Positions 11,655-28,617 of a stretch of 64,000 nucleotides of DNA are shown one piece after another. The stretch covers positions 1 through 64,000 of the forward strand of contig NZ_JAKGAP010000018.1 of NCBI RefSeq assembly GCF_021532375.1, in the 5' to 3' direction. Numbering within the stretch: the first letter of the stretch is position 1; each line of letters begins with the position of its first letter. A program made the position numbers and the translations under genes. This DNA comes from Paenibacillus alkaliterrae. GTDB taxonomy: Bacteria > Bacillota > Bacilli > Paenibacillales > Paenibacillaceae. The notes below the pieces were generated by a model. It saw only the letters and a program-made list of their open reading frames with translations, was not told the DNA's origin and did no database searches.

Positions 11655-11678
11655 AAACAGACGATGATGGGGGCATTT

Positions 11679-13295
11679 ATGTACAATCTTTTGGTGGTTG
11701 ACGATGAAGAGATCGCTATACGCGGAATTATCCATGGAATCGATTGGTCGGCGCTGCAGCTCACAAACGTATTTACGGCTAATGATGCCGAAGATGCGAA
11801 GTCGGTCTTCCGCAACCATCCGGTTCACGTCATGATTTCCGATATCGATATGCCGAGAGAAAACGGAATTCTGCTCCTGAACTGGGTGAATGAACATTCC
11901 CCGGAGACGAAATCGATATTTTTAACGGCACATGCGAACTTCAAATACGCGCAGCAAGCGATTCAATTGAACAGCTTCGATTATTTGCTCAAGCCGATTG
12001 ACCATGAATGCTTAAAGCAATGTGTGGAGAAAGCTTTGGATGATGTTAAGGATCGGGAGGAAGAAAGGTCTTTTCGAAAAACTTTTGAAGTTTATTATGA
12101 CCAGTGGAAGAAACAGCTTCCATATTTGGTCGAACGTTTTTGGCAAGATGTATTGCACCAGAAAATCAGCACCCGTCCCGATCAATTGGAATCGATGTGT
12201 ACGGTATATGGCATTCCGCTTGATGCCGGCAAACCTATCGGGCAGATTCTTATTAGCGTTGAAGAATGGAAGCGGGAGTTTAATGCGCGCGATGAGGATA
12301 TTATGACTTATGCGCTTAAGAACGCAGCTGCGGAGATACTGCTTGAATCTCAACCCGGGACCGTAATTCAAGATCAGAACGGAATCATCTACGCATTGTT
12401 ATATGACCCGGCACCGGAACAACTATCTCTCCTTGAGGAAAGGTGCCTGGAGTTTATCTGCAAGAGCGAGCAATACTTAAACGGGATTGTATCCTGTTAC
12501 ATTGGCGAGCCTGCGACCGTGGCCGGACTTCATTTAAGAGCGCAGCAGCTGGCGGACATGGAAAGATTGAATATTCGAAAAAAGGGAAGTGTATTTCGGC
12601 TCTCGGAATTTAAGAAACCGAAAAAGATACATTCTACCGCTCCGAGCTTGCAGGAATGGCCGATTCTGATCGAGCAGGGCAAACGGCAGGAATTGATGCA
12701 GCGAGTCGAAGATATGTTCGAGGGGCTGCAGTGTGATCAGATCGATCATACATTTATGGTGCAATATTACTACGGGCTTGTAAACATGGTGTTCCAGTTG
12801 CTCCAGAGAAAATCGCTGTCACCTTCTGAGGCGTTTCCCTGTGCGGAATGGAAGACTGGCGAAACCACTTTGAAGTCTCTGACCGCCGTCAAGGCCTGGA
12901 CGCTCCAATTCGTCGGGAAGGCGGTCGAATATATCGGATGCCATAGTAAGGAGCTTTCGGGAGCGATTGTCAAGGTGCAGAAATACATTGAATCTAACCT
13001 TCATCTGGAGTTCAACAGGGAATTAATCGCAGAATATGTGTATCTGAATCCGGCATACCTTTCCAGGCTATTCCGTAAAGAAACGGGAAAATCGCTGACC
13101 GACTATATGATTGATTGTAAAATGGCGAAGGCAAAGCAGGAACTGGCGAACACAAATGTGAAAATCAGCGACATTGCGCTTTCGGTCGGTTATTGCAATT
13201 TCTCCCATTTCTCTAAACTGTTCAAAAAAACGACGGGACTGACGCCGCATGAGTATCGCAAAAAATATCAGGACATTTATCAGGACATCCTCTAA
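11679..13295 (+). CDS. YesN-type response regulator (receiver plus AraC DNA-binding)
   Basis: A 538-residue regulator. Residues 1-120 are a receiver domain with the acidic pair DDEE, phospho-acceptor Asp55 in MISDIDMPRENG and the Lys in LLKPID. The last 100 residues form a double helix-turn-helix of AraC type (ISDIALSVGYCNFSHFSKLF). It starts at ATG 11679 (MYNLLVVDDEE) after GGGGG; the in-frame ATG at 11664 would put this site inside the gene. It is 24 bases after the kinase. Such pairs usually activate an adjacent sugar transporter. Two are adjacent here, one upstream and one beyond the IS. Confidence 0.9.
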   Translation: MYNLLVVDDEEIAIRGIIHGIDWSALQLTNVFTANDAEDAKSVFRNHPVHVMISDIDMPRENGILLLNWVNEHSPETKSIFLTAHANFKYAQQAIQLNSFDYLLKPIDHECLKQCVEKALDDVKDREEERSFRKTFEVYYDQWKKQLPYLVERFWQDVLHQKISTRPDQLESMCTVYGIPLDAGKPIGQILISVEEWKREFNARDEDIMTYALKNAAAEILLESQPGTVIQDQNGIIYALLYDPAPEQLSLLEERCLEFICKSEQYLNGIVSCYIGEPATVAGLHLRAQQLADMERLNIRKKGSVFRLSEFKKPKKIHSTAPSLQEWPILIEQGKRQELMQRVEDMFEGLQCDQIDHTFMVQYYYGLVNMVFQLLQRKSLSPSEAFPCAEWKTGETTLKSLTAVKAWTLQFVGKAVEYIGCHSKELSGAIVKVQKYIESNLHLEFNRELIAEYVYLNPAYLSRLFRKETGKSLTDYMIDCKMAKAKQELANTNVKISDIALSVGYCNFSHFSKLFKKTTGLTPHEYRKKYQDIYQDIL

Positions 13296-13356: not shown

Positions 13357-13441
13357 ACAATGAAAGCAAGACAAGTATTGAACAATAACGACAAGAAGGA
13401 GCAATTCCTGTAATGAAGTAATTTGAGCTTTGAAAGAAAAA

Positions 13442-13507
13442 AGCGCCTCTTGTATACTGGGAATCGTTGTTCCGGACAAGAACAAAACCCACATACGAAA
13501 AGAGGCA
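13442..13507 (+). promoter_or_regulatory. inverted repeat covering the transposase ribosome binding site
   Basis: GCCTCTT near 13444-13450 can pair with AAGAGGC near 13499-13505. The right arm contains the AGAGG that would serve as the transposase Shine-Dalgarno. Transcripts entering from outside would carry both arms and hide the site. Protection of the transposase from read-through is inference from known IS behaviour. Confidence 0.4.
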
Positions 13508-13513
13508 CTCAGG

Positions 13514-14812
13514 ATGAAGTATAAGCTGAAAGAAAAACAGAATCAACGTATTACGCGAATTTCGGATACAACGTTAGTTGTTGGAGCAGACATTGCCAAG
13601 AAGATTCATGTGGCTCGTGCGGTGGATTTCCGCGGCATTGAGCTAGGCAAAGATTGTGTCTTTCACAATGATCAGGAAGGGCTAACGAAGTTGGCAACGT
13701 GGATGACGGAGCTGAAGCAGGCTCATGGCAAAACAGAAATCGTTTTTGGTATTGAGCCTACCGGGCACTACTGGTTTCCGTTAGCGGCATTCCTTGAGAA
13801 TCAAGGTATCAAGATCGTCGTGGTGAACCCGCATCATGTCAGCAAGAGCAAGGAACTTGAGGACAATTCACCGACAAAGAGCGACTACAAGGATGCTAAA
13901 GTCATTGCCGACTTAATCCGTAACGGAAAGTATTCGGAGCCTAATCTGCCAACGAAAGAATACGCAGATTTACGTATCTATATGAACTTCCGAGAAAAGG
14001 CTTCAGTCAATCTTAACCAAGTAAAGGGCAGAATTAGCAATTGGTTTGACCGCTACTTCCCCGAGTATGCAAGTGTCTTTAAAAAATGGGAAGGTAAAGC
14101 ATCGCTCATGACGATGCGGCAGTTCCCTACGCCTGGAGAGATCCAATCAACAGGCACCAGAGGCATCCTCGCCCATTGGAAAACGGAAGTAAAGCGAGGC
14201 GTGGGTATTAAGCGTGCAGAGAAGCTATGTGCCGCAGCAGCCACCTCGATTGGACTGACCGAAGGATTAACGGCAGCGCGAATGGAATTATCTGCTCTGC
14301 TTGAACAGTACGACCTATTCACCAAGCAGCTTGAGACAACGATGGAGAAGGTTATGCAAATCCTTGAGAATATACCAGGGGCGGCAGAAATGCTAACCAT
14401 CCCCGGTGTTGGCGCCATCACGGTTGCCGGATTTTTGGCGGAGGTTGGCGATTTGAACAAATACGACCATGGACAACAGATTATTCGTCTAGCCGGTCTG
14501 AATCTCAAAGAGAACAGTTCAGGTACACGCAAAGGAAAGACTGGGATCACCAAGCGAGGACGATCACGTCTAAGAGCCTTACTGTTCCGAGCAGTACTGC
14601 CGATGGTGGCCAAAAATGAAGCGTTCAAGGCGCTTCATAAACACTACACCACACGAAGCCAGAACCCGCTTAAGAAGAAGCAATCGATTATCGCTTTATG
14701 TGGAAAGTTAATACGCGTCCTGCATACGCTGGGGACAAAGCAACGAGCGTATAACGCTAACGATGTATTAGGTCCTATTCGGCAAGCCCAGATGCAACAA
14801 ATGGCAGCTTAA
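13514..14812 (+). CDS. IS110-family transposase (DEDD, RuvC-like)
   Basis: A 432-residue recombinase with the N-terminal RuvC-like domain (Asp in VGADIAKKIHVA, Glu in FGIEPTGHYW, the two Asp of SDYKDAKVIADL) and a C-terminal Transposase_20 domain (IPGVGAITVAGFLAEVGD, then LAGLNLKENSSGTRKGK with the candidate nucleophilic Ser). ATG 13514 follows AGAGG; longer versions starting at 13430 would read through the leader. The frame is complete with no interruption, so the element may be active. The family recombines DNA guided by an element-encoded RNA. Confidence 0.92.
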   Translation: MKYKLKEKQNQRITRISDTTLVVGADIAKKIHVARAVDFRGIELGKDCVFHNDQEGLTKLATWMTELKQAHGKTEIVFGIEPTGHYWFPLAAFLENQGIKIVVVNPHHVSKSKELEDNSPTKSDYKDAKVIADLIRNGKYSEPNLPTKEYADLRIYMNFREKASVNLNQVKGRISNWFDRYFPEYASVFKKWEGKASLMTMRQFPTPGEIQSTGTRGILAHWKTEVKRGVGIKRAEKLCAAAATSIGLTEGLTAARMELSALLEQYDLFTKQLETTMEKVMQILENIPGAAEMLTIPGVGAITVAGFLAEVGDLNKYDHGQQIIRLAGLNLKENSSGTRKGKTGITKRGRSRLRALLFRAVLPMVAKNEAFKALHKHYTTRSQNPLKKKQSIIALCGKLIRVLHTLGTKQRAYNANDVLGPIRQAQMQQMAA

Positions 14813-15223: not shown

Positions 15224-16204
15224 ATGGCGTACGATATGTCGAACGCGGTTATAAAAACCAAGAATATCCGGCAATCGAGAGTGCTTAGGTTCGCATTACT
15301 TAGTACCATACAGAAATATTGGATGTTTTACATCATGATGCTCCCCGGTATGCTGCTGCTGCTGCTGAACAATTATATTCCGATGTTCGGTATCCTTATT
15401 GCATTCAAGAACATTAATTACACGGACGGGATTCTGGGAAGTCCGTGGGTGGGACTGAACAACTTCGAATATTTGTTCAAGACGTCGGACGCCTGGATAA
15501 TTACCCGGAATACTTTGCTTTATAATTCATTTTTCATCGTTTTGAATTTGCTTTTCCCGCTTGCTTTCGCCATCATGCTGAATGAAATGAAAAACCGCTT
15601 TCTAGCCAAGTTCCACCAAACGGTGATGTTCCTGCCGTATTTTCTATCGATGGTCGTCATCAGCTATCTCGTGTTCGGTTTTTTGAGCGATGAACACGGC
15701 TATATGAACTCAACGGTGCTGCCTGCGCTCGGCATGGAACCGCTCCAGTGGTACTTCACGAAAGAAGTGTGGCCCTATATCCTGCCGATTGTAAACACAT
15801 GGAAAGGGATGGGCTACTTTATGGTTATCTATATGGCGGCCATCATCGGGATCGACGATGAATATTACGAAGCCGCCACGATTGACGGCGCCAGCAAATG
15901 GCAGCAAATGATCAGCATTACCATTCCGCTCATCATGCCTGTCATTACGATCATGACGCTGCTGCAGATCGGACGTATCTTCAACGCCGATTTCGGATTG
16001 TTCTTTCAGGTCCCGAGAGAGTCCGGGGTATTGTTCCCGGTGACCAACGTTATCGATACGTATGTTTATCGTACATTCCTGACGGTTGGCGACATCGGAT
16101 TGTCTTCCGCGGCAGGGCTGCTGCAATCGGTCGTCGGGTTCTCGCTGGTATTCTTTTCAAACTGGATAGTCCGCCGATTAAATCGTGAGAACGCTTTATT
16201 TTAG
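15224..16204 (+). CDS. ABC transporter permease, LplB type
   Basis: A 326-residue permease of the LplB class used for oligosaccharides and polysaccharide fragments. It has a cytoplasmic N-terminus, about six membrane segments, the family phrase MLPGMLLLLLNNYIPMFG and an EAA loop (YEAATIDGAS...IPLI). GGGAGG lies 8 bases before the ATG. It is first of a three-gene transporter unit whose upstream region now abuts the insertion element. No convincing promoter is visible between 15117 and the gene. Confidence 0.88.
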   Translation: MAYDMSNAVIKTKNIRQSRVLRFALLSTIQKYWMFYIMMLPGMLLLLLNNYIPMFGILIAFKNINYTDGILGSPWVGLNNFEYLFKTSDAWIITRNTLLYNSFFIVLNLLFPLAFAIMLNEMKNRFLAKFHQTVMFLPYFLSMVVISYLVFGFLSDEHGYMNSTVLPALGMEPLQWYFTKEVWPYILPIVNTWKGMGYFMVIYMAAIIGIDDEYYEAATIDGASKWQQMISITIPLIMPVITIMTLLQIGRIFNADFGLFFQVPRESGVLFPVTNVIDTYVYRTFLTVGDIGLSSAAGLLQSVVGFSLVFFSNWIVRRLNRENALF

Positions 16205-16232
16205 TGAACACATTGCTTAAGGAGGGATGCCG

Positions 16233-17168
16233 GTGGAAGCAGTTGCCGATCATTTGCCGTCCGGATCGAATCCGAAAAACCGGCTGCCGTTAGCGGCTGC
16301 TATGGGAATCCATGTTTTCTTTATTTGCTATTCGCTTCTATGCATCATTCCGCTGCTCTTGATTATGATGGTGTCGTTTTCCAATGAAGAGGACGTCCTT
16401 CGCGAAGGGTATAAGTTTATTCCGGCTCATTTCGATTTGACGGCGTACCGGTTCCTCTTCGAGGACTTTAATCAGATCGCCAGGTCCTACGGGATATCGA
16501 TGTTCGTCACCGTTGTCGGTACGCTGCTCAGCTTGATCATTATGGCGCTTTTCGCATATCCGATATCAAGGAACGATTTCCCTCACGCCAAGTTCTTCAC
16601 TTTCTTTGTATTCTTTACCATGCTATTCTCAGGCGGGCTTGTTCCGTGGTATTTGGTTTATGTCCAAATGCTTGGTCTCAAAGACACGATTGTAGCGCTC
16701 ATCTTGCCCCTCCTTATATCTGCTTTCTTCGTTTTGATTATTCGTACGTTTTTCCAAACCACGATTCCGGCGGCCGTTTTGGAATCGGCCAAAATCGACG
16801 GAGCGGGTGAACTCCGGATTTTCTTTCAAATCGTTCTTCCGCTTTCGTTACCGGTATTAGCCACCGTCGCATTGTTCCAGACTCTTACATATTGGAATGA
16901 CTGGTTTTTGAGTTTGGTCTTTATTAGCGGTGATGAGAACGTCTCGATCCAATATTTGATGTATAAGACCATGCAGAATATATCCTACCTGGCTAACAAC
17001 AGTACGGCTGCGGCTGCCATTAACGCTGCAGGCGGGCATGTAACGTTCCCGAGCGAGACGGTCCGTATGGCGATGGTTACTGTCGGAATCGGTCCGATTA
17101 TTTTCGCTTATCCGTTCTTTCAGAAATATTTCATTAAAGGATTAACTGTCGGTGCCGTTAAAGGGTGA
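16233..17168 (+). CDS. ABC transporter permease, YtcP/LplC type
   Basis: A 311-residue permease partner with about six helices, the EAA loop LESAKIDGAG...LPLS and the C-terminal FFQKYFIKGLTVGAVKG ending of the class. The start is GTG 16233: AAGGAGG at 16219-16225 is 7 bases before it but touches the in-frame ATG at 16227, which is therefore too close. It follows the LplB gene by 28 bases. Confidence 0.88.
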   Translation: MEAVADHLPSGSNPKNRLPLAAAMGIHVFFICYSLLCIIPLLLIMMVSFSNEEDVLREGYKFIPAHFDLTAYRFLFEDFNQIARSYGISMFVTVVGTLLSLIIMALFAYPISRNDFPHAKFFTFFVFFTMLFSGGLVPWYLVYVQMLGLKDTIVALILPLLISAFFVLIIRTFFQTTIPAAVLESAKIDGAGELRIFFQIVLPLSLPVLATVALFQTLTYWNDWFLSLVFISGDENVSIQYLMYKTMQNISYLANNSTAAAAINAAGGHVTFPSETVRMAMVTVGIGPIIFAYPFFQKYFIKGLTVGAVKG

Positions 17169-17207
17169 TTGGCATATAACTATTCTTTTAAGGGAGGTCA
17201 TTCATTT

Positions 17208-18731
17208 ATGCATCAATTGCAAAGAAGATCCATTGCTATCATTCTGATGATGGTCCTTGGACTGCTATTATCGGCATGCTCCGGCGCCAACGGAGGTGAG
17301 AACTTAGGTTCGACTACGGCCGACAATGAGCAGGAACCGGCAGACAGTACGGCAAGCAAGCTGAAGCCTTACCAGATAAAGCTCGTGTACCCGGGTTCAC
17401 CGCAAAAGGACGAGAAATTGGTGGAAGAAGCTTTAAACAAGCTGTTAACCGCCAAAATTAACGCGACTGTCGACCTGCAACCGATCGAATGGGGCGCCTG
17501 GGATGATAAAATCAACCTGATGATCGCTTCACGCGAGCCGGTTGACATCATCTTCACCGCACAATGGAACGGTCACGCCAAGAACGTGGCAAAAGGAGCG
17601 TTCATTGAGCTCGGAGACCTGCTCACAAAAAATGGACAAGGCATCCTGTCATCTCTTGACCCGGTATTCCTGGAAGGAGCCAAAATCAACGGGAAAAACT
17701 ACGGAGTGCCGACGAATAAAGAGCTGGCGTTTGCCGGCGGAATCATTTACCGGAAAGATATCGCAGAAGAACTCGGGCTTGATATGAGCACCGTCAAAAC
17801 GCCCGAAGATCTTGACGCCATCTATAAAGTGTTGAAAGAGAAACGCCCGGATATTATTCCGCTCTGGGCAAGCGGCGGAGTATTCAACGGTCAATTAGGC
17901 AACTATGATTCCCTGGGTGACGGCACGGTTCCAGGCACCATCCTGAAAGATCAAAACGATACGACCGTCATGCCGGTACACGAGATGAAGCGTTACATCG
18001 ATTACTTAAAGATTGCCCGCGATTACTTCCTCAAAGGATATATCAACAGTGATGCGGCAACGACGCAATTGTCCGGCGCGGACGCTTGGAAGGCCGGCAA
18101 TGTATTCTCCCAGGTTGAGCCGCTCAAGCCGGGTAAAGATGCCGAGGTTGCGAGTGCTGCTAATCTGAATGGAAAATTGGCGCAAATCATCATGACGGAA
18201 AAAACGGTCGCCACGTCGGAAACGACCGGTTCGATGCTCGGTATTTCTTCGACATCTAAGGATCCGGAACGCGTGATGATGTTCATTAACCTGCTGCATA
18301 CGGACAAAGAAATGAACAATATGCTGAATTTCGGCATTGAAGGCGTTCACCACACACGGAATGGGGAAACGATCTCCGCAACCGAGAAGACGAAAGACTA
18401 TAACCCGGGTTCGGCTTGGATGTTCGGCAATCAATTCCTGAATTATGTATGGGATACGGAGGATCCGGAAAAGTGGAATAAGTTCCTTGAGTTTAATGAG
18501 GGTGCCAAGCCTTCTCCGGCTCTGGGCTTCGTATTCGACAGCGAGCCTGTGAAAGCGGAAGTCGGCGCGATGGCGAACGTGATCCGTCAATATCAGAGAG
18601 CGATTGAGACCGGATCCGTCGACATTGACAAAATGTTGCCTGAATATAACAATGCGCTGAAAGCCGCAGGTTTGGATAAAGTCATCGCCGAGAAACAAAA
18701 GCAATTTAACGCGTTTTTGGAGAAAAAATAA
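17208..18731 (+). CDS. LplA-type substrate-binding lipoprotein
   Basis: A 507-residue lipoprotein with signal MHQLQRRS, hydrophobic stretch and LLSAC (Cys24), then a low-complexity linker and a large binding domain of the LplA class (IKLVYPGSPQKDEKLVEEAL, IPLWASGGVFNG). ATG 17208 follows AGGGAGG by 10 bases; the longer frame from TTG 17169 is rejected for lack of a site. It works with the two preceding permeases. The substrate is unknown; the class often handles uronate- or rhamnose-containing oligosaccharides. Confidence 0.9.
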   Translation: MHQLQRRSIAIILMMVLGLLLSACSGANGGENLGSTTADNEQEPADSTASKLKPYQIKLVYPGSPQKDEKLVEEALNKLLTAKINATVDLQPIEWGAWDDKINLMIASREPVDIIFTAQWNGHAKNVAKGAFIELGDLLTKNGQGILSSLDPVFLEGAKINGKNYGVPTNKELAFAGGIIYRKDIAEELGLDMSTVKTPEDLDAIYKVLKEKRPDIIPLWASGGVFNGQLGNYDSLGDGTVPGTILKDQNDTTVMPVHEMKRYIDYLKIARDYFLKGYINSDAATTQLSGADAWKAGNVFSQVEPLKPGKDAEVASAANLNGKLAQIIMTEKTVATSETTGSMLGISSTSKDPERVMMFINLLHTDKEMNNMLNFGIEGVHHTRNGETISATEKTKDYNPGSAWMFGNQFLNYVWDTEDPEKWNKFLEFNEGAKPSPALGFVFDSEPVKAEVGAMANVIRQYQRAIETGSVDIDKMLPEYNNALKAAGLDKVIAEKQKQFNAFLEKK

Positions 18732-19050: not shown

Positions 19051-20439
19051 TTAACTCCAGAGACGGTCGTTGCCCACATAGTTGTTCCATTCATCGGTGG
19101 ATTCCCACATGCCTGGAACTTGCGGATGCAAGTGTTCTGCGATAACCTCGTCGTTGAGCTCTTCGATTCCGAGGCCCGGTGCGTCTGGAACATGGATGAA
19201 ACCGTTTTGCAAGAGCGGCTTCGGAAGCTTCGGAGCAATGATGATATCATCCCACCACGGAACTTCCACGGAGTGGAACTCGAGCGCAAGGAAGTTTTCC
19301 GTTGCTGCCGCAACGTGAACGGCCGCCAAGCAAGCGATCGGGCTCTCCGCCATATGGATGGCCATGGCAACGCCGTATTCTTGAGCCATATCACCGATTT
19401 TTTTCGTTTCCAGAATGCCGCCAGTCGTCAATACGTCCGGGTGAATGATGGAAACGCCGCCGGACTCGAGAAGCGCTTTGAAATTTTCTTTCAAATAAAT
19501 GTCTTCGCCCGTACAGACCGGAGTGGACACCGAGTTGGCCAATCGCACGTATTGATCCGTGTACTGCCATGGAATCATGTCTTCCATCCAGGCAAGGTTG
19601 AACTTATCGATACGGCGGCCGAGCTTGATGCAGTCTTCGATGCCGATATGACCGAAATGGTCAATACAGAGCGGAACTTCGTAGCCGATCACGGAACGGA
19701 CATCGGCCACGTATTGCTCGAGTATATCTAAACCTTTTTCCGTTACATGGACACCGGTGAATGGATGCGCAATGTTCTGGAAGTCGTAAGCGCGGTTGCG
19801 TAAACTGCGCAATTCCTCAGCCGAAACATTCTCGTTGCCGCGTGAGTTCCAGTAAGCTCTGGACGCTTCACGCGACGATTCCAGAAACCCGAGCGGTGCG
19901 CTGAGCGTGCCCGGTTCATCGAGAAGTTGGCCGATGCCGAGGTCCATTTTAAGGAATGTAAAGCCTTGATCCATCCGCTTCTTCAACGCATGGCCCATCG
20001 CTATGCCTGAATCTTTTCCATCCACATCGGTATCGCAGTACATGCGGATTTTATCACGGAACTTGCCGCCCAGCATTTGATAGATTGGGACGCCGTAGGC
20101 TTTACCTGCCAAATCCCACAATGCGATTTCAATTCCGCTAACGCCGCCGCCTTGGCGTGCATGGCCCCCAAACTGCTTAATCCGGCGGAACAGCTTATCG
20201 ACATTGCAAGGATTTTCACCCAGAAGGCGGGGTTTGAGCATCTGCGCATACATTTTATCAGCGCCGTCGCGCACTTCCCCAAAACCGACCAAACCTTGAT
20301 TTGTGTACACTTTGATCAAGGAACAGTGCATAGGGGCGCCAGAAATGTCGGCGAACCGGATGTCGGTAATTCTCAACTCGGAAGGTTTCGAATTCGTATT
20401 GACATGAGTTAACGTGCTTTCAAATGTTTGTTGTGACAT
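19051..20439 (-). CDS. enolase-superfamily sugar-acid dehydratase (ManD/GalD-like)
   Basis: A 462-residue member of the mandelate racemase/muconate lactonizing group. The N-terminal capping domain (IKVYTNQGLVGFGEVRDG) precedes a barrel with probable metal ligands Asp in CIDHFGHIG, Glu in WMEDMIPW and Glu in CTGEDIY, and a later IHMAESPIA with a candidate catalytic His. The Asp is followed directly by His, unlike the D-x-H of ManD and galactonate dehydratases. Such enzymes dehydrate aldonic acids to 2-keto-3-deoxy acids; the substrate is not evident. The start is MSQQ (20439), which has AAAGGAG 9 bases upstream. It lies downstream of two SDR genes on the same strand. Confidence 0.8.
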   Translation of the reverse strand: MSQQTFESTLTHVNTNSKPSELRITDIRFADISGAPMHCSLIKVYTNQGLVGFGEVRDGADKMYAQMLKPRLLGENPCNVDKLFRRIKQFGGHARQGGGVSGIEIALWDLAGKAYGVPIYQMLGGKFRDKIRMYCDTDVDGKDSGIAMGHALKKRMDQGFTFLKMDLGIGQLLDEPGTLSAPLGFLESSREASRAYWNSRGNENVSAEELRSLRNRAYDFQNIAHPFTGVHVTEKGLDILEQYVADVRSVIGYEVPLCIDHFGHIGIEDCIKLGRRIDKFNLAWMEDMIPWQYTDQYVRLANSVSTPVCTGEDIYLKENFKALLESGGVSIIHPDVLTTGGILETKKIGDMAQEYGVAMAIHMAESPIACLAAVHVAAATENFLALEFHSVEVPWWDDIIIAPKLPKPLLQNGFIHVPDAPGLGIEELNDEVIAEHLHPQVPGMWESTDEWNNYVGNDRLWS

Positions 20440-20475
20440 TCGTTTGGGCTCCTTTGTGATCATTTATTTTTCAAA

Positions 20476-21261
20476 TTATAACAACATGCTTGCGCCGTCT
20501 ATACGAATGGAAGAGCCTGTCATAAATTCGCTCTCATCGGATGCGATATAGCAAACCAAGCTGCCTACATCCGATGGGAGCCCGTTACGGCCCATCGGAA
20601 ATTTCTTCCTAATATCACGAGCTTCCTTCTTCATCTTCTCGGCTACTTCCGCGGGGACGATCGGCTTTGTTTCCTTAGTGCCTTGTTGTCCTACATTTAC
20701 GGCGCCAGGCTCAATGGTATTGACGGTTATGCCGTACTTGGCCAATTCGATAGCGCTTTCTCTTGCCAGCATTTTGATACCGCCTTTAGTCATGGAATAG
20801 ACGGTGTCAAAATCGGTCGGCCGCTTTCCGTGAACTGAAGAAATATTGATGATTCTTCCGGAGCCCTTAGGTTTCATATAGGGAACTACGGCTTGGATAC
20901 ACTGCCAGTATCCCTTCAAGTTGATATTCATCAATCGGTCAAAGGTGTCTTCATCATGGTCGTAGAAATTGAAATTTAACTGAAGGGCGGCGTTGTTGAC
21001 GAGAATATCGATACTTCCGAAATGTTCGGCGACCTGTTTCACCATGGTATCAATTTCATTCTTATAGGCTACGTTAGCCCTTACGATGACCGATTCTCCG
21101 CCGATTTCATCAATTTTCTCTTGTGTATCTTTCGCGCCGGCGTCACTGGAATTGTAAGAGATCGCAACTTTCGCGCCGCGTTGCGCCAGCGCTATGGCTA
21201 CTCCTTTGCCAATACCGGTACCTGCTCCTGTAACCAGTGCAACTTTTCCTGCTAGACTCAT
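20476..21261 (-). CDS. SDR-family NAD(P)-dependent oxidoreductase
   Basis: A 261-residue classical short-chain dehydrogenase. Coenzyme motif TGAGTGIG (11-18), NNAA (89-92), catalytic Ser about 141, Tyr155 and Lys159 (YSMTK), and the C-terminal GSSIRIDGASML, where most SDRs have DGG. It lies 36 bases upstream of the enolase-superfamily dehydratase and 22 bases downstream of another SDR, so the three are one leftward operon. Oxidation of a sugar or aldonate is the likely reaction; the substrate is not evident. Confidence 0.85.
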   Translation of the reverse strand: MSLAGKVALVTGAGTGIGKGVAIALAQRGAKVAISYNSSDAGAKDTQEKIDEIGGESVIVRANVAYKNEIDTMVKQVAEHFGSIDILVNNAALQLNFNFYDHDEDTFDRLMNINLKGYWQCIQAVVPYMKPKGSGRIINISSVHGKRPTDFDTVYSMTKGGIKMLARESAIELAKYGITVNTIEPGAVNVGQQGTKETKPIVPAEVAEKMKKEARDIRKKFPMGRNGLPSDVGSLVCYIASDESEFMTGSSIRIDGASMLL

Positions 21262-21283
21262 TGAAATCCTCCTTCCCCCTGAA

Positions 21284-22063
21284 CTATGGCCGTTTCATTT
21301 TGAAATCCATATAGTGCATGAGGAACCCGCCGTCCATCCGGATATCCGCTCCGTTAACGTAACGGGCTTCGTCGGTGGACAAATATAGGACAAGATGTGC
21401 CAAATCGTCATGACTGCCTAGGTTGGCGTTCGGAACTTTATATTGGTAGGAATCATAGAGAGTGGAGATATCGCTTTGAAAAAACTCTTGATCTCCCTCT
21501 ACAGGCCCCAACTCAATGACATTCACGTTGATGCCGTCCCGTCCCAATACAAGTGCCGCTTCACGGCAGAGCATCTTAACTGCTCCCTTGGATGCGCTAT
21601 AGGCAAAGGAGGAACCCGTCGGTTTTTCGGCATGAATGGAACTCACGTAAATGACTTTCCCCGATTGCATCGCTGACATTTGTTTCCCAATAGCACGTGT
21701 GCATATAAAGGCGGACTTTGCGTTGGCATTGATGATTTCCAGGAACAACTGCTCTTCGCATGTTTCTACGCTGGCCGGTTTTACGACATTGTTGTTGTGT
21801 ACGAAAATGTCAATGGTGCCGAGCTGCCGAGCCGTTTCCTCCAGCATCGCCTCCAGATCGGAGCTCTTGCATAGGTTAATGTTTGTGACGACGACCTTGG
21901 ATCCAAAGGCTTTCAGCAGTTGAAGATTCGATTCGATGTCTTCACCGCCTGAAGTGCTGTTCAAAATAAAATGAGCGCCTTCCGCAGCCAAACGGTTGAC
22001 AATCGCTTTTCCGGAACCGCTGTCTGCATCCGTAATAAAGACGATTTTGTTTTGTAATTTCAT
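21284..22063 (-). CDS. divergent SDR-family oxidoreductase
   Basis: A 259-residue short-chain dehydrogenase with Tyr155 and Lys159 (YSASK) and the DGGFL tail. The glycine motif is altered to TDADSGSG (11-18) and the NNAG strand to HNNN. The start is ATG 22063 after GGGGGG; an upstream TTG at 22075 is less likely. It is first in the leftward operon behind the shared regulatory module 22104-22241. Catalysis is plausible because Ser-Tyr-Lys remain; altered coenzyme binding is inference. Confidence 0.8.
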   Translation of the reverse strand: MKLQNKIVFITDADSGSGKAIVNRLAAEGAHFILNSTSGGEDIESNLQLLKAFGSKVVVTNINLCKSSDLEAMLEETARQLGTIDIFVHNNNVVKPASVETCEEQLFLEIINANAKSAFICTRAIGKQMSAMQSGKVIYVSSIHAEKPTGSSFAYSASKGAVKMLCREAALVLGRDGINVNVIELGPVEGDQEFFQSDISTLYDSYQYKVPNANLGSHDDLAHLVLYLSTDEARYVNGADIRMDGGFLMHYMDFKMKRP

Positions 22064-22103
22064 AGATCCCCCCAACGTTTCGTATAGGCTTATTTAATTA
22101 CAC

Positions 22104-22241
22104 ACTAATCTTACGAATTTCACGCCTTGTGTTCGATGCCGTAAAATTATGATTTTGTTTGTTTTTTTTCAACGATTCATTCTCCTGAAAAAAGTTTCAA
22201 GGGAATCGGAGAAGATCATAAAAATGCCCCCTATGAGTATA
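22104..22241. promoter_or_regulatory. divergent control region with shared module (copy 1)
   Basis: Contains ACTAATCT (22104-22111), CGATGCCGTAAAATTATGAT (22134-22153) followed by TTTGTTTG, and, inverted on the other side, GATCATAAAAATG (22214-22226) with CCTATGAGTATA. The same words occur in the same order at 25097-25230. They lie between the leftward SDR operon and the rightward aldo/keto reductase remnant. A common regulator is inferred. Confidence 0.65.
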
Positions 22242-22319
22242 ATTTTATCTCCTACTCTTATAAAAGCGCTTATGGTAATTTTGAGTTCAAGTTATGTAAA
22301 ATAGAAAGGAGAAAGAGAA

Positions 22320-22978
22320 ATGATTACTGATATCGGAAGTTGTTCCGTGCTTCACAATGGCTGACAAAGGTTGCGAATCATCGCCAGAACGAGGGATACG
22401 ATTCGGTCCTGAAGGCTTTTGAGGAAAGTCTGGAATGCCTGAATCTGGACTATGTCGATCTTTATCTGGTTCATTGGCCTTTAGAAGGAAAATACATCGA
22501 TGCCTGGCGTGCGTTGGTTAAGATTTACCGCGAAGGGAGGGTACGGGCGATCGGCGTGAGCAACTTCACCGTGGATCATCTGGAGAGGATCATCGAAGAC
22601 TCCGGCGAAGTCCCGACCGTCAACCAGGTCGAATACCATCCGCTGTTGACCCGAAACAAACTTCATAGTTACTGCAGAGAACAACACATTCAGTTGGAAG
22701 CGTACAGTCCGCTGATGCAAGGCCATCTGGATTTGCCGTTGCTGCAGGAACTCGCCCAAAAATATGCGAAGACGCCGGCGCAAATCGTGCTGCGTTGGAA
22801 TTTGCAAAACGAAGTCGTCACGATTCCCAAGTCGGTTCGCGGGCGGCGCATTGTCGAGAATGCCGCCATATTCGACTTCGGGCTATCGGACGACGATATG
22901 AACCGGATTAACGGGTTGAATCGGGATTACCGTTTTCTTGTCAATTCGAGTCCCAATATCAACAGCTCGGCAGAGTAA
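22320..22978 (+). pseudogene. aldo/keto reductase inactivated by internal deletion
   Basis: AAGGAG and ATG 22320 open a normal aldo/keto reductase N-terminus (MITDIGSCSVLHNG), but a stop follows at 22362. The family sequence resumes in another frame at TKVANHRQ and continues to the natural end at 22978. Compared with the intact paralogue at 39356-40183, about 63 residues are missing, including the segment with the catalytic Asp and Tyr ([10 protein letters not shown]). The remaining 3' part keeps LVHWP and GVSNF. The loss is a frameshifting deletion of roughly 190 bp. The product would be inactive even if translated from the internal ATG at 22340. Confidence 0.85.
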
Positions 22979-23017
22979 ACCGACATCGAAAGTAATGGAC
23001 AGCAGCTGTCGCCATTA

Positions 23018-23049
23018 TTCCGTCCGCCGGGTTAACCCGGCGGACGGAA
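23018..23049. terminator. perfect 32-bp palindrome between convergent genes
   Basis: TTCCGTCCGCCGGG followed by TTAA and its exact complement. It lies between the reductase remnant and the leftward uxuA-like gene. There is no T-run on either side, so factor-independent termination is uncertain. Confidence 0.5.
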
Positions 23050-23072
23050 GGCGAGAGTGATCGTCGATTGGA

Positions 23073-24035
23073 TTATTTCTTATAAGCGGCTTCCATTAGA
23101 CCTTTAATATAACCGACACCGAACAGACGCCCAAGCACTTCATATCCAGGGTTCCCATTATCTTCGCCGGCCATTGTAGGAACATGGTCCGGTCGGGCAG
23201 GACCGTCATAACCTACCTCTGCGTATGTTTTCATCACTTCGAACATATCCGTTTTTCCATCATCATGGAAGGTTTCCTCGAACTTTTCTGCAGTTCCCCG
23301 TACATCCCTAAAATGAACAAAAAACAATTTATCTTGTTTAGCAAACCTGCGAATCGTGGCGGGAATATCATCTCCGGCCGCTGCCAGGGTTCCTTGGCAC
23401 AAGGTAACGCCGCTATACTCGCTTGGCACCAAATCGATAACGCGCTGCAGCGCGTCGGCGCTCGTAATGATGCGGGATACGCCGCGGATCGGTGAGATTG
23501 GCGGATCATCGGGATGCAGCGCTAATTTGACCTTTGCTTTTTCTGCCACCGGTACGATCGCTTTTAAATAGTACACCAGGTTTTCCCACAGCTGATCTTC
23601 ACTAACCGGTGCATTCTCCGTGAATGGCGCATTTTTCATTAGGGAATGGTCATAGCTGGATACTAAAGCACCCCCGCGCGTTCGCGTACTAGTTGATGTG
23701 CGGAACCAGTTAAATTCAGCCATATAATCATAGCACCATACCGGAATTCCCAGTTCGCCCATATTCCGAATAAGTTCTTGAATCACTGCTATTTCTTCAT
23801 CCCGTCCCGGCAAACCTAACTTAATTTTATTAGCTGGCGGTCTGGCTTCGATAACTTCTGCTTTAAAACCGAAATTCTCAAATCTTTGTTTCATATGCAA
23901 TAGATTTACATAATCCCAAGGCGTAAAGCCATTTTCCGCTTTAGGTAATCCTGTAACAGCATAATTAATACCCATCTGCTTACAAAGTGTCCACAATCGT
24001 GTTTCATGGGTTCCTAACGCTTCTGCTAATTTCAA
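23073..24035 (-). CDS. uxuA: mannonate dehydratase-like protein (UxuA family)
   Basis: A 320-residue UxuA-family TIM barrel. Mannonate dehydratase converts D-mannonate to 2-keto-3-deoxygluconate. Family signatures are present: ALHPDDPP, VTLCQGTLA, FFVHFRDVRG and the C-terminal RPDHVPTMAGEDNGNPGYEVLGRLF. It is somewhat shorter than E. coli UxuA (394) but near the Gram-positive form. Start is TTG 24035 after GGAGGGG. It is second in a leftward pair behind an RraA-like gene, 88 bases away with a hairpin in the gap. No uxaC or uxuB is nearby, so the substrate may differ from mannonate. Confidence 0.8.
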   Translation of the reverse strand: MKLAEALGTHETRLWTLCKQMGINYAVTGLPKAENGFTPWDYVNLLHMKQRFENFGFKAEVIEARPPANKIKLGLPGRDEEIAVIQELIRNMGELGIPVWCYDYMAEFNWFRTSTSTRTRGGALVSSYDHSLMKNAPFTENAPVSEDQLWENLVYYLKAIVPVAEKAKVKLALHPDDPPISPIRGVSRIITSADALQRVIDLVPSEYSGVTLCQGTLAAAGDDIPATIRRFAKQDKLFFVHFRDVRGTAEKFEETFHDDGKTDMFEVMKTYAEVGYDGPARPDHVPTMAGEDNGNPGYEVLGRLFGVGYIKGLMEAAYKK

Positions 24036-24087
24036 TTAATACCCCTCCTATTTATCGTTTCTTCACCTGATTCTTCTGGGAAAGGGA

Positions 24088-24113
24088 AAGAACCGGCATG
24101 CCGGTTCTTTTTT
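24088..24113 (+). terminator. hairpin between the RraA-like and uxuA-like genes
   Basis: Perfect 22-bp palindrome (24088-24109) with six T on its plus-strand side. The genes here run on the minus strand, where only TCTTTCCC follows, so for them it may act as a partial terminator or a processing site. Confidence 0.5.
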
Positions 24114-24123
24114 ATTTTGCTTC

Positions 24124-25029
24124 TTATAGACGAACGTCGCTCGACGGTCCGTTTTCTTCCAATTTGCTCGCTTCTTCGAGTTCCTGGTCCCATGTAAGGT
24201 GGCGGTACGGGGCTGCTTCTTCGTCGCTTTTAAACCAATCCAGGAAATCCTGCCAAAGCGGCATCTTCCATCCGGCGTCGATTTGTGCGGTCGAATAAAC
24301 GCCTTCCTTCAACCGGACAAAGCCGAAAACGTCACGTACTTGGGACTTCTCCGCTTGAACGACGGTAAGCTCAGCAAGGTGAGGAGGGATAAAGATGACT
24401 CCGGCCGGCGAAGCGTATACAATGTCTCCCGGAAGACAGACTGCCCTGCCGATCCGCGTCGGAACGTTCATCCCAACCATCGTCACGTCCGCAATGCCCG
24501 TCGGATCGCTTCCGCGGTAGAACACGTTGATGTTCTCGATCTCTGCAATTTGCTGATTATCACGAATTCCGCCCCAGATCACCGCTCCGCCTCTTTTCGT
24601 GCGAGTGGAGATGGCGGTCGACAGGTTTCCGCCTACATAAGTTCCTTGGAAAATTTTATCGAACATGTCAACGACGACAAGATCATCTTCTTGCAGAGAG
24701 TCGATGACCCATTGATTAAAGAAGCCTTTTCTGTTTTCCTGCTCATGTCCATAATTGAGCAGCGTTTCGTGCAGGTCCGGACGTTTAGGCACCATTACGG
24801 CAGTGACGGCGCGGCCGACCATCACCTTGTCGGGGTGAACGATTTTGAAATCGCCTTCAAATTGATAAGTATAACCTTTGTTCCAAAGAGGCCCCCATGC
24901 TTCTTCCACCGTGATTTTCCGCAACCGTTCAAGAATATTTTCTGATACTTTGGGACGGCCGTTCGGAAACCTTTCGCCTTGCCAAAGCGGGGTCAACTGG
25001 ATAATGTCTTCTGGATTGTCAAATTTCAT
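24124..25029 (-). CDS. RraA-like / HMG-CHA aldolase-family protein
   Basis: A 301-residue protein of the RraA superfamily, longer than RraA itself (161). The diagnostic core is present: GGNLSTAISTRTKRGGAVIWGGIRDN, with the G-G-N/x20/R-D pattern used for metal and substrate binding, then PGDIVYASPAGVIFIPP. Members that act in catabolism are 4-hydroxy-4-methyl-2-oxoglutarate-type aldolases or oxaloacetate decarboxylases. In this cluster an aldolase for a 2-keto acid is plausible. It is first of a leftward pair and shares the control region 25097-25230 with a rightward SDR. Confidence 0.75.
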   Translation of the reverse strand: MKFDNPEDIIQLTPLWQGERFPNGRPKVSENILERLRKITVEEAWGPLWNKGYTYQFEGDFKIVHPDKVMVGRAVTAVMVPKRPDLHETLLNYGHEQENRKGFFNQWVIDSLQEDDLVVVDMFDKIFQGTYVGGNLSTAISTRTKRGGAVIWGGIRDNQQIAEIENINVFYRGSDPTGIADVTMVGMNVPTRIGRAVCLPGDIVYASPAGVIFIPPHLAELTVVQAEKSQVRDVFGFVRLKEGVYSTAQIDAGWKMPLWQDFLDWFKSDEEAAPYRHLTWDQELEEASKLEENGPSSDVRL

Positions 25030-25096
25030 ATGAACACCTCTTTTTTGTTTTATAAAAGTTTCCCGCTGCTTGCGGCGACTTTTTCATTATTAATAT

Positions 25097-25230
25097 ACTA
25101 ATCTCGTCCGGTTGGTTGCGATGCCGTAAATTTATGATATTGTTTGATTTTTTTCAAACCCGAAGCGCCTCCAAAAAAAATCGAACAAAATCATAAAAAT
25201 GTAGCCTATGATTATACGTTGGAGATTAGT
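25097..25230. promoter_or_regulatory. divergent control region with shared module (copy 2)
   Basis: A two-layer inverted repeat. Outer arms ACTAATCTC (25097-25105) and GAGATTAGT (25222-25230) are exact complements. Inner arms TTATGATATTGTTTG (25132-25146) and CGAACAAAATCATAA (25182-25196) match at 13 of 15. The layout gives each divergent gene the same sequence at the same distance. It shares its left half and most of its right half with 22104-22241. Confidence 0.7.
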
Positions 25231-25280
25231 AATTTAAAGATATACAATCGTCACCAATCTTACATTAGGAGGGAATAAGT

Positions 25281-26066
25281 TTGAATAAAGTTGCAGTCGT
25301 CACAGGGGGAGCATCCGGACTGGGCAGGGCGGTCGCCCTGAGATTATTCGGCAACGGGCATTCTGTAGTCGTCGTAGACGTCTCCGAGAATACGGAAGGC
25401 ATGCCTGCGGAAACGGAACGTTCCGAATCATGGCATTATATTCGTGCCGATGTAACGAAGAAAGACAACACGATAAGGGCCGTCGAACAGGTTATCGACC
25501 GGTTGGGGCGGATCGATATTTTGGTGAATGCCGCAGGGATCATTCGTCGTTCTCCGGCAGCCGACATTCCGGAAGATGAACTTAAATCGGTACTTGATAT
25601 CAATCTGCTGGGTACGGTATATATGTGCCAGGCAGTTCAACCCTATATGGCTCGCTCAGGCGGCGGCTCCATTGTCAATTTCGGGTCCATGCTTGCACAT
25701 TACGGCAGTGAGAATCTGCTTTCTTATGCGGCGTCGAAAGGCGGAATCGTACAGGTTACAAAATGTCTGGCCGTGGAATGGGCGAAATATAATATTCGCG
25801 TCAATGCCGTCAGTCCGGGATATATTGAGACCCCGCTGTCTGCGGGAGCGACTCTAGATCCGGTTTTCCGCGAGCGGATCTTATCCCGAACGCCTTTCCG
25901 TCGATTTGGGAAGCCCGAGGAGATTGCGGCTGCCGTAGATTTTTTGGTTTCACCCGATGCGAGCTTTATTACGGGAATCGTGATGCCGGTTGATGGAGGA
26001 CTTCTCGCAGGAGATCCGTCCCTGTTCCCGCCGGCATCTATGAGAACAGTGAAAGGAGATGAATAA
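25281..26066 (+). CDS. SDR-family oxidoreductase
   Basis: A 261-residue classical SDR with TGGASGLG (8-15), NAAG (83-86), Ser136, Tyr149 and Lys153 (YAASK), and the VMPVDGG tail. It starts with TTG 25281, six bases after AGGAGGG. It is followed after two bases by a cupin gene, so the two are co-translated. The 3-ketoacyl/gluconate 5-dehydrogenase-like sequence suggests oxidation of a sugar or sugar acid. Confidence 0.85.
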   Translation: MNKVAVVTGGASGLGRAVALRLFGNGHSVVVVDVSENTEGMPAETERSESWHYIRADVTKKDNTIRAVEQVIDRLGRIDILVNAAGIIRRSPAADIPEDELKSVLDINLLGTVYMCQAVQPYMARSGGGSIVNFGSMLAHYGSENLLSYAASKGGIVQVTKCLAVEWAKYNIRVNAVSPGYIETPLSAGATLDPVFRERILSRTPFRRFGKPEEIAAAVDFLVSPDASFITGIVMPVDGGLLAGDPSLFPPASMRTVKGDE

Positions 26067-26068
26067 TC

Positions 26069-26548
26069 GTGGCTGATGCTTTATATGATTATACCAAAAT
26101 GGTGCAGTTGAGCGATCAGGCGATCGATTTGGACCATATTCCCTGGGTGCCGCAGACGGATCGGGTGTGGTTTAAACCGCTGAGATTTGATCTTGCCCGG
26201 GGAAGTTGGGTTAATTTGCTGAAGGTAAAGCCGGGCGGGATCGTCAACAGGCACCGACACAGCGGTGGTCAAGTGCTTGCTTATACGATTCAGGGAACTT
26301 GGAGGTATTTGGAAAGGGATTGGGTGGCGAAAGCAGGCACGTTTGTCTACGAGCCGCCGGGCGATATCCATACGCTTGTCGTTGACGGGGAAGAGGAGAT
26401 GATTACATTGTTCCTATTGGAAGGTACCGTTCAGTATTTGGATGATGAGGATAACATCATGTATCAGGACGACGTGTTTACCAAGCTCAAACGGTACGTT
26501 GAATATTGCGAAGTAAACCAACTTCCGGTGATCGATTTGAAATTCTAG
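26069..26548 (+). CDS. cupin-domain protein (dihydroxyacetophenone dioxygenase-like)
   Basis: A 159-residue single cupin. The metal site reads NRHRHSGGQ and later GDIHTLV, giving His-His and a distal His. The N-terminal VQLSDQAIDLDHIPWVPQ and the overall layout resemble the 2,4'-dihydroxyacetophenone dioxygenase group. In a sugar-acid cluster it may act as an isomerase or accessory enzyme instead. GTG 26069 is served by AAGGAG inside the end of the SDR gene. A terminator follows. Confidence 0.7.
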   Translation: MADALYDYTKMVQLSDQAIDLDHIPWVPQTDRVWFKPLRFDLARGSWVNLLKVKPGGIVNRHRHSGGQVLAYTIQGTWRYLERDWVAKAGTFVYEPPGDIHTLVVDGEEEMITLFLLEGTVQYLDDEDNIMYQDDVFTKLKRYVEYCEVNQLPVIDLKF

Positions 26549-26587
26549 CAGATCCCAAGGCCTAAGTTTTGTAATATATTTCTCTCA

Positions 26588-26625
26588 AACGCAAAAGCCG
26601 CCTCCACGGTGGCTTTTGCGTTTGC
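26588..26625 (+). terminator. terminator after the cupin gene
   Basis: AACGCAAAAGCC (26588-26599) pairs perfectly with GGCTTTTGCGTT (26611-26622), extended by GCC/GGT, then TTT. Confidence 0.8.
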
Positions 26626-26667
26626 CCTACAAGATGTGCATCACCAGTTGGCCAAGGAGGCACCACG

Positions 26668-27843
26668 ATGGTTCGTATAACGGCATTTATTTTCTTATTG
26701 TTTTCCACTTTCAGCATAATAGGTTTCTTTCTGCCTGTATATCTTCAAGGCAAGGGTTTCGATTCAGGACAAATCGGCAGCATCCTCGCGTGGGGGGCTC
26801 TCGCATCCATATTTGGACAGCCGTTCTGGGGGTATGTCAGCGATAAAAGAAAGACAATCAAACATGTGCTGCAGCTATTGCTCATCTCAAGTCTATTGCT
26901 GAGCATAGGACTGTTCTCGGCCGGCACATTCGTTCTGATCTTGATCTTTTTTGCCGCGTTCAGTTATTTTAATAGTGCCGCCGGTCCTCTGGCTGAAACG
27001 TTATGTATCTCTTATGCGCGTGAGAATAACAAAGATTATGGAAGAATTCGCCTTTGGGGAGAAGTGGGAGTCGGAATTTCCGCTCTCCTGCTCGGAGTCA
27101 TTGTGGGTCGCGTCGGAATCGATTCCCTTTGGTTTATTTATGCAGTGAGTCTGTGCATTGCAATCGCGGCTACGTTGTTGGTGAGGGATACGAAAGCTGC
27201 ATCAGCGCCAGTTAATGTGTCAGCGCTTGGAAAAGTGCTGGCCAAGCCCAAGCTTCTATGGTTTCTGTTACTTGTTCTTCTGATCGCGATACCGCATCGG
27301 ATGAACGATAGTATGCTGGCGATCTATCTGATTCAGATGGAAGCATCGGAGACTGAGCTCGGTTTGGCTTGGCTGGTTGGGTCTTTAAGCACCGTTCCGG
27401 CCCTGTTTTTTGTAGGGAAAGTGTTGAAAAAATGGAATGAGCTCGGCATTTTGTTGATTGCCGCTTTAATTTATACGGTTCGTTGGGCCATATACAGTCA
27501 AGCGGATAGCCCTGCTGTTTTAATAGTATCCCAATTGTTTCACAGTTTGACGTTTCCGTTGTTCTTTGTTGCTTCCATTCAATACTTGTTAAATATCGTT
27601 CCCGCCGAGCTTCGCGCAACCGGTCAGGCTGCATTTGCCGTTACCTTCGGCGGTTTGGGCGGAATAATCGGAAGCGTAGCAGGAGGCTACGCCATTGATC
27701 ATTTCGGACCGAATACCGCTTACGGCGCAGGCAGTATCCTCTCATTCATCGGAGCGATCGCTATTGCGGCTACTTATATGGCGAACCGGCGAAAGAGCAG
27801 CGGGACGATCTTAAAGACTGCAGGGAAACAAGCGAATATATAG
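26668..27843 (+). CDS. MFS transporter (MFS_1-like, HcaT/LacY type)
   Basis: A 391-residue membrane protein with about twelve hydrophobic segments. The loop between helices 2 and 3 is WGYVSDKRKTIKH, a form of the MFS signature. YGRIRLWGEVGVGISAL is characteristic of the HcaT/LacY-like branch of proton symporters. AAGGAGG precedes the ATG. It follows the SDR-cupin unit after a terminator and precedes the GntR gene, so it likely imports the acid or sugar handled by this island. No ABC transporter lies inside the island. Confidence 0.85.
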   Translation: MVRITAFIFLLFSTFSIIGFFLPVYLQGKGFDSGQIGSILAWGALASIFGQPFWGYVSDKRKTIKHVLQLLLISSLLLSIGLFSAGTFVLILIFFAAFSYFNSAAGPLAETLCISYARENNKDYGRIRLWGEVGVGISALLLGVIVGRVGIDSLWFIYAVSLCIAIAATLLVRDTKAASAPVNVSALGKVLAKPKLLWFLLLVLLIAIPHRMNDSMLAIYLIQMEASETELGLAWLVGSLSTVPALFFVGKVLKKWNELGILLIAALIYTVRWAIYSQADSPAVLIVSQLFHSLTFPLFFVASIQYLLNIVPAELRATGQAAFAVTFGGLGGIIGSVAGGYAIDHFGPNTAYGAGSILSFIGAIAIAATYMANRRKSSGTILKTAGKQANI

Positions 27844-27923: not shown

Positions 27924-27945
27924 TATCGATTAAAGAGAATCGATA
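27924..27945. promoter_or_regulatory. inverted repeat upstream of the GntR gene
   Basis: TATCGATT (27924-27931) and AATCGATA (27938-27945) are exact complements with a 6-bp spacer. They lie 28 bp before the GntR start. A self-regulatory operator is likely; the motif was not found in the shared module regions. Confidence 0.5.
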
Positions 27946-27972
27946 ATCCGTAGTTTTAGAGGTGATCCAACA

Positions 27973-28617
27973 TTGAATAAGCAGAATGTTTTAATTCAAA
28001 CGGTTTCCTTAAGTGAACAGGTATATATCAAATTAAAAAAAGCGATCCTAGAGGGCGAGTTTCCCCCCGGGCACCGGCTGCTCGTCCTGGAAATCGCGAA
28101 TAAATTCGAAATCAGCCAGGCGCCTGTGAGAGAGGCTCTCGAGAGACTTAAGCAGGAAGGGTTGATCGTCGGGAAAACGAACAAGGGGTCGGTTGTTTCC
28201 GAAATTACGTCCAAAGAAATCAAGGATGTCTATGAATTTAGGACCCTTGTCGAGGGACATGCCATCCGGGAAGCCATGAAAGTAATGCACGCCGGCGATT
28301 TCGAATATTTGGAACATACCGTGCAAGGAATGCGAGAGGCAATCAAAGAGAAAGATGCTTTTCAACTGGTCGAGCTCGATATGAGATTCCACGGTTTTTT
28401 TTATGAACGGTGCAATAATCATTTGTTCGTCGAGATCTGGAAAAATATCCGCACGAAAATCATGAGGTTTATAAGCATTACGAACCAGCATGTTCCCAAC
28501 GATGATATCGTGGCAGGTCACAGCAAGCTGCTGGAAGTGATTAAATCCGGAAACGTAGAGGAAGCCGCAACCATGGGTGTTGAAGGGTTTCAATTTTATA
28601 AAGATTATACGGGTTAA
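27973..28617 (+). CDS. GntR-family regulator with FCD domain
   Basis: A 214-residue FadR-subfamily regulator. The N-terminal winged helix (VYIKLKKAILEGEFPPGHRL, APVREALERLKQEGLI) is followed by an all-helical FCD domain with metal-ligand candidates Asp and His in ELDMRFHGFFYE and His in VAGHSKLL. The FCD domain usually binds a small organic acid such as an aldonate or hexuronate. TTG 27973 is used, six bases after GAGGTGA. It is last gene of the catabolic island and its most likely regulator. Confidence 0.88.
   Translation: MNKQNVLIQTVSLSEQVYIKLKKAILEGEFPPGHRLLVLEIANKFEISQAPVREALERLKQEGLIVGKTNKGSVVSEITSKEIKDVYEFRTLVEGHAIREAMKVMHAGDFEYLEHTVQGMREAIKEKDAFQLVELDMRFHGFFYERCNNHLFVEIWKNIRTKIMRFISITNQHVPNDDIVAGHSKLLEVIKSGNVEEAATMGVEGFQFYKDYTG

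Follow-up and report, generated by a model that had tools for sequence, protein, structure and literature searches.

Two divergent intergenic regions in a 64,000-nucleotide stretch of Paenibacillus alkaliterrae DNA (contig NZ_JAKGAP010000018.1, positions 1 to 64,000; the whole stretch is called the window here) carry the same module, at 22104-22241 and 25097-25230. Sequence comparison makes it likely that the two copies are back-to-back sites for an AraC-type activator and form, together with a further site at 6560, one small regulon, whose reader would most likely be AraC389, a regulator encoded elsewhere in the genome on contig C35. The regulon probably serves the uptake and breakdown of a sugar acid, since dehydratase and dehydrogenase families are present among its genes.

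The repeated module and its predicted sites

The repeated module is genuine, and it is both exact and specific. Its left word, CGATGCCGTAAANTTATGATNTTGTTTG, occurs at 22134 and 25119 and its right word, ATCATAAAAATGNNNCCTATGA, at 22215 and 25190, in each case without mismatch and as an earlier note on this DNA had claimed (two matches in the window for each, shuffle means 0.00 and 0.01); neither has a further match in the window when up to three mismatches are allowed. The genome-wide search proposed in that note (5.65 Mb) bears this out for the left word, whose consensus, with up to three mismatches, matches only the two window places (control 0). The relaxed right word gave 19 matches, against 4 in the control: the two window sites, which are the only exact ones, one match with two mismatches, inside a 150-aa open reading frame (ORF) on contig C124, and 16 with three. 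The outer arms of copy 2 are exact, as claimed (ACTAATCTC, 25097-25105, and GAGATTAGT, 25222-25230); in copy 1 the left one alone is present (ACTAATCT, 22104). The two copies are 87% identical over 46 nt and 82% over 38 nt.

The symmetry proposed for the module holds in part: both arms share an A-rich stretch and ATCATAA, but they are not mirror images throughout, continuing with TTTACGGCATCG on the left and AAATGNNNCCTATGA on the right. The idea that each gene sees the words at the same distance is likewise only approximately correct, as the distances from core to start are about 84, 105, 103 and 91 bp, assuming ATG 22063 for the SDR3 gene and ATG 22320 for the truncated reductase gene; the spacing to a −10-like hexamer varies less. 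The two arms have a core-centre spacing of 69 bp in copy 1 and 59 bp in copy 2. A pair of arms is also found between the MFS and SDR3 genes of Paenibacillus sp. H1-7 (locus L083; centres 59 bp apart), in P. piri (L127; 110 bp) and in four Cohnella loci (42 bp). We considered helical phasing of the arms and rejected it: spacings of 59, 69 and 110 bp are roughly in phase, but 42 bp is not, and we therefore claim no phasing rule.

Each copy is predicted to consist of two promoter sites placed back to back, one for each divergent promoter. The site layout is an A-tract, CAAAC, TC(A/G)TAA and C(C/A)T, usually followed by a −10-like hexamer 39-40 bp after TC(A/G)TAA. It was defined outside the window. 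We aligned 43 related loci in which the permease gene permA is divergent from rraA, and their intergenic regions share conserved words, including AAAAAATCAAACnATTTCATAAATTCnTCnCCT before permA (41 sites). From these 41 sites, leaving out L083 and L090, we built a position weight matrix (PWM), which contains no window sequence and has an effective number of about 6 after weighting, and a model, R1. With the PWM, the permA site of L083 scores 41.7 bits and L090 has no site of at least 16 bits. A further model, R2, was built from 45 sites, again without window sequence: 44 of 60 references (similar ones removed by hand) and L127:8158.

In the window, the PWM ranks the site at 6560 highest (42.9 bits), followed by the right and left arms of copy 2 at 25175 (29.1 bits) and 25118 (24.7 bits) and, in fourth place, by the left arm of copy 1 at 22133 (21.4 bits). 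The right arm of copy 1, at 22200, is eighth with 12.0 bits, short of the 14.4 bits that the best score in each of 30 shuffles averaged (the highest being 21.2). Genome-wide, R1 places window sites at ranks 1, 2, 3 and 5 (E-values 9.6e-9, for site 6560, then 0.006, 0.12 and 0.25), rank 4 being a match on contig C65 (E 0.23). R2 has window sites at ranks 1-4 (3.0e-10 for 22133, 7.1e-10 for 25118, 3.0e-5 for 25175, and 0.05), and its next match has an E-value of 0.23. Among the 150 of several thousand first-look candidates that each model scored, neither returned site 22200 or any further convincing site. We rejected the off-locus matches as sites: they are partial, with E-values of at least 0.2, and one, on contig C82, falls between two ORFs that converge on it.

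Individual sites have counterparts in relatives. Site 22133 is nearly letter for letter the SDR3 site of related loci, 25118 corresponds to a site before rraA in P. alkalitolerans (L059:9905) and 25175 to one before the MFS gene of L083 (position 3240). In the window, the −10-like hexamer has an offset of 40 at permA and rraA and of 39 at SDR3; before SDR1, TAATTT is found at offset 39, yet the best-scoring hexamer is at 16, within the site. At site 22200 the best hexamer, TATAAT, is at offset 22 and not at 39-40. The rraA promoters of relatives (e.g. in L061, upstream of 10001) have strongly conserved GTCGCATCGACAAA and AACAATAGA, a possible −35/−10 pair, which we did not see in that form in the rraA promoter of the window.

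The words look regulatory, mark divergent promoters and probably belong to one regulon, as first proposed. The number of promoters, originally put at four, has to be revised: the strongest site, at 6560, is a fifth, and since copy 1 has a weak right arm in front of a truncated gene, we count four good sites and one doubtful one. Because this gene, for an aldo-keto reductase, combines truncation with the weakest site, its side of the module appears to have decayed.

Distribution of the site and of its candidate reader

For the relatives, we looked at the surroundings of RraA-like orthologues, taking the best 80 of 91 loci, and counted a site if it scored at least 16 bits and was at most 330 bp upstream of a locus gene. 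Locus genes are preceded by a site in 67 of the 80 loci. It stands before permA in 64 of 66 loci, 41 of which are the PWM's own training set, and before SDR3 in 47 of the 50 relatives in which SDR3 was seen; the counts are 11/70 for enolase, 1/80 for rraA and 1/1 for the MFS gene. The best −10-like hexamer is 39-40 bp past TC(A/G)TAA in 53 of the 64 permA sites and 45 of the 47 SDR3 sites. Conservation of the site, its distance to the hexamer and its distribution are direct outcomes of these computations. They describe a predicted site that is asymmetric and stands at a fixed distance upstream of the putative −10, near −35, as in regulons of AraC/XylS-type activators.

The earlier note had left the regulator unnamed. 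There is now a strong candidate, the AraC/GGDEF_2 protein on C35, the GntR and AraC proteins of the window being weaker ones. AraC389 proteins, of about 389 residues, comprise a GGDEF_2 half and an HTH_18 DNA-binding half; GGDEF_2 and AraC helix-turn-helix (HTH) domains (HTH_18, HTH_AraC) were present in all four that we scanned. In most relatives this regulator is linked to the target genes, and in the host genome it is unlinked. Of the 67 site-bearing loci, 59 encode full-length AraC389, which was recognised as an ORF in 55 and by tblastn in four (L069, L105, L117 and L137). L070, L071, L120 and L121 have a full-length relative (47-60%) elsewhere in the genome, and in L091, L124 and L126 a protein cut down to the C-terminal DNA-binding half (about 220 aa) follows just after rraA and the sites are retained. 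For the 13 site-less loci, AraC389 was not found in 12 genomes (L115, L123 and ten metagenome-assembled genomes) by a search that in part had no positive control. The other one, L090, has an AraC389 gene (10968-12161) that is apparently frameshifted in the second HTH; regulator and site may have decayed together here. Of 65 AraC389 proteins compared, 63 retain the putative second recognition helix (RYFSQ); the putative first one is mostly conserved but varies at positions 320 and 324. Both helices were assigned by analogy with AraC proteins.

In the mechanism we favour, the predicted sites would lie just upstream of the expected −35 region, one per divergent promoter, and AraC389, encoded in trans on C35, would bind the sites and activate transcription. 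The GntR protein at 27973 would probably act on a palindrome of its own, either a level above or independently. Binding and activation by AraC389, an inducer and any step through GntR are what we infer.

Several observations weigh against this interpretation. On the side of the site, a 21-bp direct repeat is not evident (column similarity 0.36 at offset 21, versus 0.41-0.42 at 8, 17 and 18), and a reversed-PWM control reached 19.6 bits, near the weakest accepted arm, so that 22133 barely exceeds the controls on the PWM alone; further, both genome-wide model searches scored only their 150 candidates. On the side of the reader, L107 has sites and AraC389 was not found there, the contig ending just after rraA, where the gene would be, and the AraC389 gene of L095 is also apparently frameshifted in the second HTH, yet the sites are kept. 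Ten of the 13 site-less loci are metagenome-assembled genomes of other phyla or classes, none of them Paenibacillaceae, so that the pattern is in part a matter of ancestry. The host genome has 132 AraC-like matches, and gntR is encoded in the locus exactly as often as AraC389, in 59 of the 67 site-bearing loci.

Rival readers of the module

Because of this equal frequency, the two regulators cannot be told apart as readers by distribution alone. The GntR/FCD protein at 27973, which is encoded in the window and whose counterpart in P. alkalitolerans is divergent from rraA, might bind the module directly, as repressor or activator. The words do separate the two, since the upstream regions of gntR genes carry TTATCGATAA, a palindrome missing from the module, whose site is long and directional. 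An exact copy precedes 55 of 62 gntR genes; the seven without one are that of the window itself, the second gntR of L083, that of L102 and those of four Cohnella loci. Half-words of the palindrome are confined to three places in the window, 27939, 53706 and 54401; upstream of GntR 27973 there is a ATCGATAAT-type word near 27924-27947, with ATCGATAAT at 27939. The earlier statement that the word before this gene differs from that of the module is supported. L091, L124 and L126, moreover, keep their sites and have no gntR within 10-kb flanks, to which that search was limited. We therefore regard direct binding of the module by GntR as unlikely.

The abundance of AraC-like proteins in the genome speaks for a different reader, either another member of this family (28935, 32258 or any other in the genome) or a regulator of broader scope. 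The two window proteins have matches of no more than 23-34% identity in the 80 loci, and the confinement of convincing sites to this locus among the candidates scored argues against a global regulator; we judge these options together to be rather improbable. Directly downstream of the 6637 transporter lie genes for a kinase (9963-11654) and its YesN-type response regulator (11664-13295), the latter an AraC-type DNA-binding protein, but the pair has no close match in the 80 loci (best 23-28% identity, E 1e-8, 40% coverage; the search covered the loci and not whole genomes), where the sites are conserved, which makes the response regulator a very unlikely reader. Finally, the two copies could be alike simply because one intergenic region was recently duplicated, without any control in common. 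The same arms, however, recur before orthologous genes in dozens of species, and the sequence between them is not conserved, so we give this explanation hardly any credence.

The locus, its origin and its significance

The features are collected in Table 1. The permease genes were named by reading and from orthologues, and SBP_bac families matched the solute-binding protein. The pieces scattered over the window form one locus in most relatives. The common order in the 80 loci, with variants, is SDR3, SDR2 and enolase in one direction, uxuA, the solute-binding protein gene, permB and permA in the other, rraA divergent from permA and, further on, AraC389 and gntR pointing back towards it. The order SDR3, SDR2, enolase is maintained in many relatives, and orthologues of both permeases and the solute-binding protein adjoin rraA/uxuA in most.

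Table 1. Predicted sites and genes of the proposed regulon in the window
Feature	Position	Strand	Details
Predicted site before ABC permease operon	6560-6595	+	AAAAAAACAAACAATTTCGTAAAATCGTCGCCTGTC; TATAAT 6616-6621, offset 40
cre-like word between site and −10	6600-6613	+	TGAAAGCGGTTTCT
ABC transporter	6637-9814	+	permeases 6637-7608, 7572-8444; solute-binding protein 8471-9814
SDR3, SDR2, enolase-superfamily dehydratase-like	19051-22075	−	SDR3 21284-22075; SDR2 20476-21261; enolase type 19051-20463; Pfam/NCBIfam
Copy 1 left arm, predicted site for SDR3-SDR2-enolase-type operon	22133-22168	−	TAAGAT 22108-22113
Copy 1 right arm, weak site facing truncated aldo-keto reductase gene	22200-22235	+	
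Aldo-keto reductase remnant	22320/22340-22978	+	PF00248 matched at 69-290 of 291
UxuA-like, RraA-like	23073-25029	−	UxuA-like 23073-24035; RraA-like 24124-25029
Copy 2 left arm, predicted site for rraA-like and UxuA-like genes	25118-25153	−	TATATT 25092-25097
Copy 2 right arm, predicted site for SDR1-cupin-MFS genes	25175-25210	+	TAATTT 25230-25235
SDR1, cupin, MFS transporter	25281-27843	+	SDR1 25281-26066; cupin 26069-26548; MFS 26668-27843
GntR/FCD regulator	27973-28617	+	

The aldo-keto reductase remnant is without about the first 68 profile positions, i.e. its N-terminal part; a 330-aa relative adjoins uxuA in Cohnella (L094:1555-2547). An IS110-type transposase gene (13430-14812) separates the response regulator gene from a second ABC transporter (15224-18731), and perfect spacerless inverted repeats at 23018-23049 (16-nt arms) and 24087-24110 (12-nt arms), just 3' of genes, are perhaps terminators. 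The word between site and −10 at the permease promoter, TGAAAGCGGTTTCT, is a putative catabolite-responsive element (cre) for CcpA; a similar word is conserved in relatives, CGAAAGCGGTT.CA being the majority word in the 43-locus alignment.

The regulon and its candidate activator appear to have different histories. In a FastTree phylogeny of six joined proteins from 58 loci, the window groups with P. alkalitolerans and P. thermotolerans (support 1.0), which are classified in another family than the host, while in a tree of 65 AraC389 proteins the host copy is found among relatives of its own genus, next to L085 and L101 (with bootstrap values not fully settled). P. alkalitolerans has an AraC gene directly upstream of permA, and the window has none at that place. 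This conflict between the trees, together with the missing gene, suggests that a resident activator serves a regulon that was acquired; the alternative to acquisition is differential loss. The host AraC389 (C35:5769-6929) is intact, with 389 aa, and is 57% identical to the P. alkalitolerans protein and 77% to that of L061. Between the host and P. alkalitolerans proteins, 83 of 104 residues are identical in the DNA-binding halves and 137 of 284 in the N-terminal halves, which is compatible with one shared site.

Next to the host AraC389 gene is a gntR remnant (L139:2712-2974; 75% identity over residues 151-218, plus N-terminal scraps), upstream of which a palindromic word has been kept (ATTATCGATTATCGATAAT, one of three ATTATCGATAAT places in the genome). 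Since this gntR is broken and the operator word survives, the incoming GntR may control the resident AraC389. It is thus conceivable, though on balance rather doubtful, that the sugar-acid regulon arrived without an AraC protein of its own and was adopted by an AraC389 surviving from a lost native locus, with the incoming GntR perhaps controlling it. If true, regulators of two lineages would be wired into one cascade.

This is an ordinary, known kind of bacterial gene control, of which the regulon is a new example. According to PMC3870299, the rhamnose regulators of Bacillales, also of the AraC family, have a conserved site in front of the transporter and catabolic genes linked to them, inferred by a comparative method, and a 21-bp direct repeat is reported for some Bacillales AraC regulators. 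The type of regulator is the same here and site placement and comparative inference are similar, but such a repeat is not evident and the genes differ. MsmR1 of Paenibacillus polymyxa, as described in PMC9722767, is likewise an AraC/XylS-family protein of carbohydrate metabolism in Paenibacillus; in contrast to the small regulon with predicted promoter sites described here, its regulation is global, and 96% of the ChIP fragments lie in coding regions. In comparison with GntR/FCD regulators, for which we had family matches only, one is encoded with the regulon, but the palindrome upstream of gntR genes differs from the module word. We found no description of the site, its probable reader, the locus or the acquisition history in the literature, other wordings and subscription journals being outside the scope of that search.

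The analysis provides a predicted operator and regulator, open to test, for a sugar-acid locus common to many Paenibacillus and Cohnella species. It also offers what may be a clear example of a resident orphan activator taking over an acquired regulon. With the site of one of the 132 AraC-like matches in the genome defined, the rest would be easier to sort out.

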